NCBI GenBank assembly: GCA_016200325.1
Contig: JACQEZ010000019.1
Coordinates: 248,001-312,000, forward strand
Origin: Candidatus Manganitrophaceae bacterium
Lineage (GTDB): Bacteria > Nitrospirota > Nitrospiria > SBBL01 > Manganitrophaceae
DNA: 64,000 nt
Reading direction: 5' to 3'
Shown in pieces: positions 31,432-39,826 of this stretch (position 1 is the stretch's first letter; the number at the start of each line of letters is the position of its first letter). The translations under genes were made by a program, and so were the position numbers. Under the pieces are notes generated by a model that saw only the letters and a list, made by a program, of their open reading frames with translations, made no database searches and was not told the origin of the DNA.

Positions 31432-31516
31432 GCCTTTCGAGATAAACCGGTCGGTTGGAAAAAATATCCCGCTCTCGGCCGTATGATCGAAGCGAGCATG
31501 CGCACCAGGAGGATTG

Positions 31517-34417
31517 ATGAGACGGTCGATGAAACGCGTGGTCTGTTCCGCTCTGTTGATGGCGATCGTGATGAGCGGCTGCTCCGGTTTGAAGAAGCGG
31601 CTTGCGTCGGAGCGGGATCTCGACGACTGCGCAAAGATGGCGGCGACCGGATTCCGCCCCGTGGCGGGCGAGCGGACCGAGCGCTTTCTCGGTAAGGTCC
31701 GGGAAGAGACGGCCCGCTGCCGCGGCGGCGAGAAGGCGGCCTCCTTCCGAGGCGCCTCCTGGGTCGATTGGTCGAACTACTGGGCGACCGGCGACCTCCG
31801 CAGCCGGGCGACCGGCTTCGGAGGCGACACCCGCCATCTCGATCCGAACGGCCGCGGGATCGACGGCGCGCTGCTCGATCTCGAATACCAACGGATGGAG
31901 CTGATCAAATTCAACCTCTTCGACAACAGCGGCACCTACCCCGACTTCGTGCAAGGACGGAGCGGCGTTCAGGGAGCGGCGCTGAAAGTCTGGGACACCC
32001 TGCGTCTGCCGAAGGAGAGCCCCTTCTATCAAGCGGTCGGCGGCGACGGCCCGCAGCTCTGCCGCGATGAATTGATCCGCTTTCGCAATCTGACCGGGAT
32101 CTGCAACGACCTTAAAAACCCGGCGATGGGATCGGCCGGCATGCCGTTCGCCCGAAACGTCCAGTTCGAAGCGACCTTCCCCGACCTCGGCAAAAACGAG
32201 CTGGCGAGAAACCGCCACGGCGATCGGCTCGGTCCGCTGACCCCCGATCCGCAGGTGATCAGCCGGAAACTCTTCACCCGCGCACAATCGCAGCCGGAGA
32301 AATGCCGCGAGGGTCAAGGACTCCCCAACGACTCCCCCGACGCAAATTGCGATTATAAAAAAGCGCCGTTCTTTAATGTCTTGGCCGCCTTCTGGATTCA
32401 GTTCATGACGCACGATTGGTTCTCCCATTTGGAAGAGGGTCATAATCAATCGGAAATGATGGCGGTCGGCTGCGCGACCCAGCGGGTCAGCAATGTCGAG
32501 ACGCCGCTGACGCCGGAGGAGATCGCAAAGCTCGGCTGCCGTCCGGATGACCGGATGGAAAAGCCGCTCATCGCCGAGGAGAGCGATCCCGCCACCTTCT
32601 TCCATAAAGGGAAGGAGATTCCGACCCGCGCCTATAAAATCACCCGAAACACCAACACCGCCTGGTGGGACGCCTCCCAGCTCTATGGCTATGATGAAAC
32701 GTCAAGACGGCGGGTCAAACGGGATCCGGGCGATCGGGCCAAGCTGCTGTTGGTCGGGATTCCGCAGCGGACGTCGGCCGGCGAGCAGACCGGTTATCTC
32801 CCGCCGTTCGCGCCGGGCGATCCGATCAACCCCGCCTGGTCGGGACAGGAGGCGGCCGCCTTTCCCGACAACTGGTCGATCGGCATGAGCTTCTATCACA
32901 ACCTCTTCGCCCGCGAGCACAATCTTTTCGTCGAGGCTTTCCGGCAGCGGACGGCGAAGATGCCGGGGGCCGACGCGGGCCTTCGCAACCCCGCCCGGCC
33001 CGACGCCGTCATTCTCTATCGAGATGTCTCCGACGACGAGATCTTTGAGGTGGCGCGGCTGGTCGTCTCGGCCGAGATCGCCAAGATTCACACCACCGAG
33101 TGGACCCCGCAGCTGTTGTATGACGAGCCGCTCTTTTTGGGGATGAACTCCAACTGGCATGGGCTGATCCACGACGATAATTTCGTCTCGCGGGCGTTGG
33201 AGAAGATCGTCATCGACAATTTCGGAAAATCAAAAGAGGCGAAGGAAGCATCGCAGTGGTATTAGGTCTTCGCCTCCGGACCCGGCATTTTCGGGCTCGG
33301 CAGCCGGGTCTATGACGATGACGCGATCTTTGCCAAATTCGATCCGAAGAAGACCGACATCTGGAGCCTCTCCAACCCCGACCATGTCAACGGCGGGGTG
33401 AATCACTTCGGCTCGCCGTTCAACTTCCCGGAGGAGTTCGTCACCGTCTACCGCCTCCATGCGCTCGTCCCCGATCTGATCGAATACCGAGAAGTCGGCC
33501 GCCCCAACACCATTCGGAACAAAATCCCGATCCTCGCCACCTTCCGCGGCCAGGCGACCGACGCGATGGAAAGCCGCGGGCTGGCGAACTGGGCCCTCTC
33601 GATGGGGCGCCAGCGTCTCGGGCTTCTCACGCTGCAGAACCAGCCGCAGTTTCTTCAGAACCTCCCGATGCCGCGGCTCCAGACGGCGACGAACAAGCTC
33701 GATGTCTTAGCACTCGATTTAATCCGCGACCGCGAGCATGGCGTCCCCCGCTTCAACGAGTTCCGGCGGCAATATGGTCTGAAGCAGCTGACCGGCTTCG
33801 ATGACTTCATCGACCCGCATCTTCCGAAAGATTCGTCTGAACGGGCAGAGCAGGTCCGCTTGGTCGGGCTGCTCCGCGAGGTCTACGGCCAGCACACCTG
33901 CGACGCCTCAAAGGTGATCACCGCCGCGCAGGTGAATGACGACGGCACCCCGATCACCGACTGCCTCGGCCATCCCGACAAGAGCGTCGTCGACAACATC
34001 GAGGATCTCGACACGATCGTCGGCTGGCTCTCGGAATTCACCCGCCCGCACGGTTATGCGATCTCCGAGACCCAATTCCAGGTCTTCATCCTCAACGCCT
34101 CCCGGCGGCTCTTCAGCGACCGCTTCTTCACCTCCAGCTTTCGCCCCGAGTTCTACACCCACCTCGGCGTCGAATGGGTGACGAACAATGGACCGGAAGG
34201 GAAGGTAATGGAAAAGGGGACGCCGAATGGACATTCGGTGGAGGTCTCCCCGTTGAAGCGGGTGCTGCTCCGAACGACCCCGGAGCTGGCGCCGGAGCTG
34301 GCGAACGTGGTGAACGCGTTCGATCCATGGGGACGCGATCGCGGCGAGTATTACTCGCTGGAATGGAAACCGCGCGCGGGGGCGGAGGGAGATGAGGCGT
34401 TCAAGGGAACGAAGTAG
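31517..34417 (+). pseudogene. Animal-haem-peroxidase/alpha-dioxygenase-like lipoprotein gene interrupted by one in-frame TAG
   Basis: Two collinear reading stretches, 582 and 383 codons, are separated only by TAG at 33263-33265 in the same frame. The first has a lipobox (IVMSGC, C22), a distal haem His H299 in QFMTHDWFSH and NLFAREHNLF. The second continues VFASGPGIFGLGSRV and includes TVYRLHALVPD, which matches the proximal His and radical Tyr of COX and fatty-acid alpha-dioxygenases (Tyr-x-x-His-x-x-x-Pro). Without readthrough the product lacks its haem ligand. The TAG could derive from TCG by one change. AGGAGG precedes the ATG. It could be a recent null, a sequencing error or recoding. 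Confidence 0.75.
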
Positions 34418-34576: not shown

Positions 34577-35641
34577 ATGCCGAAACAGCTGCTTTTTTTA
34601 ATTCATGGGATCGGGGTTCATGACACCGATTGGGCGGAGGAGGTCGACGGTCCCATCAAGACCCTCCAAAAGGTCAGCCAACAATATGCTTCCTTTCAAG
34701 CGAAGCCGCTGGAGGATCGGATCGAATTCGTCCCGATCCATTATGATGAGATCTTTCAGGAGATCGCCTCGCAGTGCCAGCACGACACGGAGCAGATCCA
34801 ACAGCTCGATCCGACCGGAACCTTCTCGAAGAGCCTCTCATGGATGGCGTCGGCGGGGGAGAAGGAGAAGAACTTTCTCTGGTCGCATGTCGCCGACATT
34901 GCCCTGTACCGCTTTTGCGCCACCTACCGGGAGCGGGTCCGAAGCCATGTGATCGCCGAGATCGCCGACCGGATCGAGAAAGCCTTCGCCGCCGACGGCA
35001 ACGCCACCGCCTCGGTGCTTGCCCACAGCATGGGGACGGCGGTGGCGCACGATGCCCTCCATCTCCTCGGAACGGTCCGGTGGGGCGATCGAACCAATCC
35101 GTTTAACCCCGCTCATTGGCGGTTCAATCAGATCTTCATGATCGCCAACACCAGCCGATTTCTCCAAACCGAAGATCGGGAGATGAAGGGGGCCTATGAG
35201 TCGATCGTCCGGCCGGGACCGGTGGAAGATCCCACCTCCTACTGCGCCGCCTACTGGAACGTCCGGCACGAGGCCGACCCGGTCCCCTTTCCCCGCGCGT
35301 TCGATCCGGTCGGCTGGAAGAGCTACGGCGCCATCCCGGTTCGGCACTACTACGAAAAAAACATCCACAACCTGAGCCACTACCTTCTCAACCCCGCCGT
35401 TCATATCCCGATTCTCAGAAAGCTGACGACCCCCAAAGCGGTCACCCCCGAAGAAGAGATCGCCGCGGTCAATCCCAACCGCTTCCCCCAGTTCGGCGGA
35501 GAGCTCGCCTTTATTCAGAAGGCGAAGTTGATGGCGCTCCAGCTGGAGGAGATCAAGCGCGCCCTCGGCGACAATCCGGAGCCGTCGAATTGGATCCGAT
35601 CGCTTGTCCAATTTTATCAAGTGGTGGAGGCCGCCCGATGA
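34577..35641 (+). CDS. Alpha/beta-hydrolase-fold protein
   Basis: This 354-residue cytosolic protein has an N-terminal strand and oxyanion-type loop LLFLIHGIGVHDTDWA and a nucleophile elbow LAHSMGTAVAHD with S151. The long insertions around it do not match a named family. No signal peptide is seen. Its TGA overlaps the ATG of the next gene (ATGA), so the two are translationally coupled. Lipase or esterase activity is likely from the catalytic serine; the substrate is unknown. Confidence 0.78.
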   Translation: MPKQLLFLIHGIGVHDTDWAEEVDGPIKTLQKVSQQYASFQAKPLEDRIEFVPIHYDEIFQEIASQCQHDTEQIQQLDPTGTFSKSLSWMASAGEKEKNFLWSHVADIALYRFCATYRERVRSHVIAEIADRIEKAFAADGNATASVLAHSMGTAVAHDALHLLGTVRWGDRTNPFNPAHWRFNQIFMIANTSRFLQTEDREMKGAYESIVRPGPVEDPTSYCAAYWNVRHEADPVPFPRAFDPVGWKSYGAIPVRHYYEKNIHNLSHYLLNPAVHIPILRKLTTPKAVTPEEEIAAVNPNRFPQFGGELAFIQKAKLMALQLEEIKRALGDNPEPSNWIRSLVQFYQVVEAAR

Positions 35642-39495: not shown

Positions 39496-39826
39496 GGGAT
39501 GTTTAAACTTAAGATGGACCGATTCACAAGCCGGTTTACTTATAGCATATCGGTTTTAGTATACCGGATTTTTTAATTCCGGCCATGGGGGGTCGATCGG
39601 TGGAGGAGAATCAGAGAAGAGAGGAGGGAAACGCTTAGGTGAGAATGACGTGAATGGGAAGAAGACGGACGGGCCTGCTCCCCCATTCATTAAAGCAAGG
39701 AAAAAGGGCCGGCTTTGCCTCTTCTGTATTCGCTCACAGGTGCAACCCCACAATGAAGGCAAACGGGACTTCCTTTTTGATCTCGGCTTGATTATGATAA
39801 AGCCATTCTCTTCCAGAGGGAGGACG
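39496..39826. other. Intergenic region before the ParB-like gene
   Basis: About 330 bases without a supportable gene on either strand. It includes the frame extending upstream of the ParB-like start, which I do not accept as coding because a strong GGGAGG lies directly before the internal ATG. No hairpin of note. Confidence 0.4.

Follow-up and report, generated by a model that had tools for sequence, protein, structure and literature searches.

An in-frame TAG private to one assembly interrupts the single copy of an alpha-dioxygenase-like lipoprotein gene in a Candidatus Manganitrophaceae bacterium

The window analysed here, a 64,000-nt stretch of a Candidatus Manganitrophaceae (Nitrospirota) genome, contains a gene whose reading frame is interrupted once. 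Direct translation of positions 31517-34417 yields a single frame that runs from an ATG at 31517 through 582 sense codons to a TAG at 33263-33265, and then through 383 codons to a second TAG at 34415-34417, bearing out the original prediction of one stop codon splitting the gene. The features of the locus are as follows.

31507..31512, + strand: AGGAGG ribosome-binding site, read directly from the sequence, 4 nt upstream of the ATG
31517..33262, + strand: alpha-dioxygenase-like lipoprotein gene, part 1, 582 codons, with signal peptide, lipobox Cys22, distal haem His299, His525 and Thr530
33263..33265, + strand: in-frame TAG, at a position that is Ser (TCG) in five of five same-genus relatives
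33266..34414, + strand: remainder of the dioxygenase gene, 383 codons, with radical Tyr645, proximal His648 and Arg864, under purifying selection on its own branch
34415..34417, + strand: normal terminal TAG
34577..35641, + strand: predicted 354-aa protein with N-terminal LLFLIHGIGVH and no Pfam match

The lipobox reads MSGC and ends in Cys22. Both parts of the frame match PF03098, the first at 7e-41 (profile positions 1-291) and the second at 2e-26 (profile positions 304-433). Given the strong ribosome-binding site, the lipobox and the matches of the two parts to consecutive stretches of one profile, we conclude that the two parts form a single gene interrupted by one stop. The gene is present in a single copy in the host genome (4.2 Mb in 20 contigs).

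The protein had been described from its sequence as an exported lipoprotein resembling cyclooxygenases and alpha-dioxygenases. That family call is right, and it can be narrowed to the group of fatty-acid alpha-dioxygenases: in a comparison of the family profile with solved structures, plant fatty-acid alpha-dioxygenases are the nearest proteins (3e-75), and no myeloperoxidase-type chain reaches 1e-10. By sequence, the protein belongs to the same haem dioxygenase family as rice alpha-dioxygenase (PDB 4kvj, 4kvk and 4kvl; also plant 4hhr and 4hhs). The predicted distal haem ligand H299 lies in a QFMTHDW motif that aligns with the same motif of 4kvj, and the predicted Tyr-x-x-His motif (YRLHALVP) places Y645 and H648, both past the stop, against Tyr379 and His382 of 4kvj, in which residue positions equal the rice numbering plus 3. 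In the mutant chain 4kvl, the residue aligned with Y645 is Phe rather than Tyr, in agreement with the alignment register. Each of the five catalytic or substrate residues examined (H299, H525, Y645, H648 and R864) is present, and all are invariant among 27 diverse aligned family members. The distal and proximal histidines, the radical tyrosine and the equivalents of His311 and Arg559, with which H525 and R864 align, are thus shared with the rice enzyme. We take the rice counterparts of the five residues to be His157, His311, Tyr379, His382 and Arg559, in that order. His311 and Arg559 are reportedly key for fatty-acid oxygenation, to go by the title of a 2008 paper by Koszelak-Rosenblum and colleagues that PMC8720084 cites. 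Unlike the rice enzyme, the present protein has an export signal, a lipobox, extra segments and the TAG interruption, and it is longer (about 966 versus about 620 residues). No NCBIfam model matched it, and structure prediction for the read-through protein gave low confidence (mean pLDDT 48.7, pTM 0.39). From its family and its conserved residues, an intact enzyme would be predicted to alpha-oxygenate free fatty acids in the periplasm or on the cell surface.

Independently of the stop, the intact protein might instead oxidise manganese, as a MopA-like haem peroxidase. The host family has been proposed to oxidise Mn(II), and haem peroxidase homologues do so in some heterotrophs (PMC9040806). 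However, alpha-dioxygenases are the best solved relatives by a wide margin, and both residues linked to fatty-acid oxygenation are kept, as H525 and R864. We consider a MopA-like function very unlikely.

Residue 583, the stop, falls within a segment that is absent from shorter alpha-dioxygenase relatives and lies between the distal-side and the proximal-side residues. The claim that it removes exactly the catalytic half is correct for Y645, H648 and R864, which follow it, but not for H299 and H525, active-site residues that precede it. The further claim that the rest of the gene is undamaged is nearly so: among 26 aligned relatives, the sole changes at otherwise invariant positions are L240P and L509I, both upstream of the stop.

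Relatives of the protein are encoded at 202 loci of the genome collection, of which the best 80 were read. They occur widely in Nitrospirota, Nitrosomonas, methylotrophs, Halomonas and Acidobacteria, often with a lipoprotein or Sec signal, so that a lipid-anchored dioxygenase in bacteria is not the rarity it had been thought to be. The uncharacterised homologues in Nitrospira, Nitrosomonas, Methylomonas, Halomonas and Acidobacteria are about 57-75% identical to the present protein, full length and in many cases exported, and they have no stop at the position of the TAG. Bacterial members of the same family include CalDOX and LepDOX of cyanobacteria, and the family has been mapped in five bacterial phyla; Nitrospirota is not among the phyla given, and the main text of that study contains neither 'lipoprotein' nor 'signal peptide' (PMC8720084). 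No paper linking alpha-dioxygenase to Nitrosomonas came up in a literature search.

The dioxygenase gene is present in each of the other five genomes of the genus, with 84-88% protein identity; the copy in G001 is split across two contigs. Each has TCG at the site of the TAG, as the original prediction had suggested other strains might. Across 99 aligned loci, a count that includes some genomes fetched twice, the codon is TCG in 50, another serine codon in 17, alanine in 18, glycine in one and a gap in 12. No other locus has a stop there, either in this alignment or among the best 80 of the 202; rather than being shared by all relatives, the stop is private to the present genome. Internal stops elsewhere in L061 (at codon 159) and L069 (at codon 490) and a frame change in L101 show that genes of other draft genomes are occasionally disrupted too.

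If the stop were old, the sequence past it should have evolved neutrally. When G003 is taken as the sister and the outgroup is G002, G004 or G005, omega for the post-stop part on its own branch is 0.07 (0.065-0.072 depending on outgroup), with a 95% bootstrap interval of about 0.04-0.12. The sister branch has a higher omega, 0.11-0.13; dS is 0.43. The part after the stop has thus been under strong purifying selection along its own branch, since an early onset of neutral evolution would have given an omega far higher than the one seen. With a background omega of about 0.08, the upper limit of 0.12 permits neutral decay over roughly 4% of the branch, so that decay can account for a few percent of the branch at most. 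It follows that the stop is very young, is an error or is harmless owing to readthrough.

The position of the stop, its absence from relatives, the family and active-site residues, the purifying selection past the stop, the single gene copy and the lack of a called suppressor tRNA together point to the first of these. The lone chromosomal copy of an exported, lipid-anchored, alpha-dioxygenase-like haem enzyme has probably been inactivated by one nonsense substitution, very recent in the present strain or in the population sampled. Translation would then stop at codon 582, the truncated product would lack the proximal haem ligand and the radical tyrosine and would be inactive, and the allele would be too young to have decayed further. 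Within an enzyme family already known, such a nonsense allele, or a sequence error in its place, is an ordinary feature.

The lack of further decay is predicted equally by a sequence error, and an error of consensus or assembly would look identical. Under this reading, which includes a minority allele picked from a mixed population, living cells would have an intact gene. It fits a gene with no other break and with purifying selection acting on it, a stop that is private to the present assembly, and the presence of another clean nonsense codon on the same contig. However, a single substitution is an uncommon type of error in deeply covered assemblies. Moreover, gross frameshifts are rare in the contig (one candidate in 69 aligned genes), which speaks against a poor assembly, and changes of the G:C to T:A type are not in excess among the private changes of the gene (18 of 172), on which ground an oxidative-damage artefact was rejected. 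We regard an error or minority allele as possible but rather unlikely.

The second nonsense codon lies in an Lhr-type helicase gene (G000:C19:230690-235231, where G000 is the host genome), 17 kb before the window start and 49 kb from the dioxygenase gene. It is a single in-frame TGA at C19:232238, a position at which the gene is open in G002, G003, G004 and G005. Both nonsense changes are G:C to T:A, which in two cases is not informative. These two were the only genuine nonsense codons in a comparison of 69 genes (24,422 aligned residues) with syntenic regions in G005; a third case fell at a gene edge, in a poorly aligned N-terminal stretch, and the reverse comparison gave cases solely in unaligned N-terminal stretches. 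A coding-potential scan of 870 kb of the 4.2 Mb, which could miss cases, found no further clear nonsense gene. To find two such genes over a fifth of the genome is unremarkable, and general decay or hypermutation was rejected on this count. The stop itself carries small weight, as one of a few nonsense alleles in the assembly.

Persistence of purifying selection past the stop would also be expected if the TAG were read through, by a programmed or a tRNA-mediated mechanism, to yield some full-length enzyme. We found no sign of this in tRNAs, PylS, post-stop structure or relatives. None of the 45 tRNAs called by ARAGORN has a CUA anticodon; a 46th tRNA match in the genome, not called by ARAGORN (L146, G000:C19:350749-350822, minus strand), is weak (33.5 bits), has by eye a glycine-type CCC anticodon and is perhaps a tRNA remnant. 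The only match to PylS in the genome is below threshold (27 bits against a cut-off of 178), and a pyrrolysine system was rejected. About one in four long ORFs in sampled contigs (51 of 226) terminates in TAG, and genome-wide recoding of TAG was rejected on this evidence and the lack of a CUA tRNA. With TAG an ordinary terminator and neither a CUA tRNA nor a pyrrolysine system found, recoding is unlikely. RNA structure after the stop is not unusually stable (z -0.66), and the stop is kept at none of the other aligned loci. Readthrough of this kind is highly improbable. Slighter still is the chance that near-cognate tRNAs read the stop at a low level, giving mostly inert lipoprotein and a little active dioxygenase, and that the stop is tolerated for that reason.

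Finally, the two halves might now be two genes whose products assemble, much as the two chains of myeloperoxidase, which arise by cleavage, do; the stop does lie between the ligand halves, in the segment missing from shorter relatives, but this is extremely unlikely. A restart is implausible, since the nearest possible start is 44 codons downstream of the stop (GTG at 33398), and the second half lacks a signal peptide, so that the products would be expected in different compartments and could not come together as an exported enzyme.

More useful than the stop is the branch to which the gene belongs, a widespread, uncharacterised group of exported alpha-dioxygenases in Nitrospirota, nitrifiers, methylotrophs and others, whose neighbours in several genomes suggest a bacterial oxylipin chemistry at the cell surface. 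A dioxygenase relative in Nitrosomonas europaea lies near a lipoxygenase and a GMC oxidoreductase (L082:4227-13647), another near a P450 and a RoxA-like cytochrome c (L030:2074-7936), and a third near catalase-like and DyP-like proteins, the latter two by weak matches (L055:8926-13224). These neighbours fit oxylipin-type chemistry, and the three neighbourhoods may be bacterial clusters for oxylipins. Three to four families of neighbours are found repeatedly, in 13-19 of the loci compared.

Downstream of the dioxygenase gene in the window, the 354-aa product of 34577..35641 is possibly an alpha/beta hydrolase, judging from its N-terminal motif. A hydrolase-like neighbour is common to the window and one relative only, and in that relative it begins about 15 nt past the dioxygenase gene. 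The segment 34577-39495, about 5 kb between the dioxygenase gene and a gene at 39794, includes the hydrolase-like gene and a gene whose product carries DUF11 repeats and weakly matches matrixin. The segment is absent from G003, G004 and G005, and its first two genes are present in G001.
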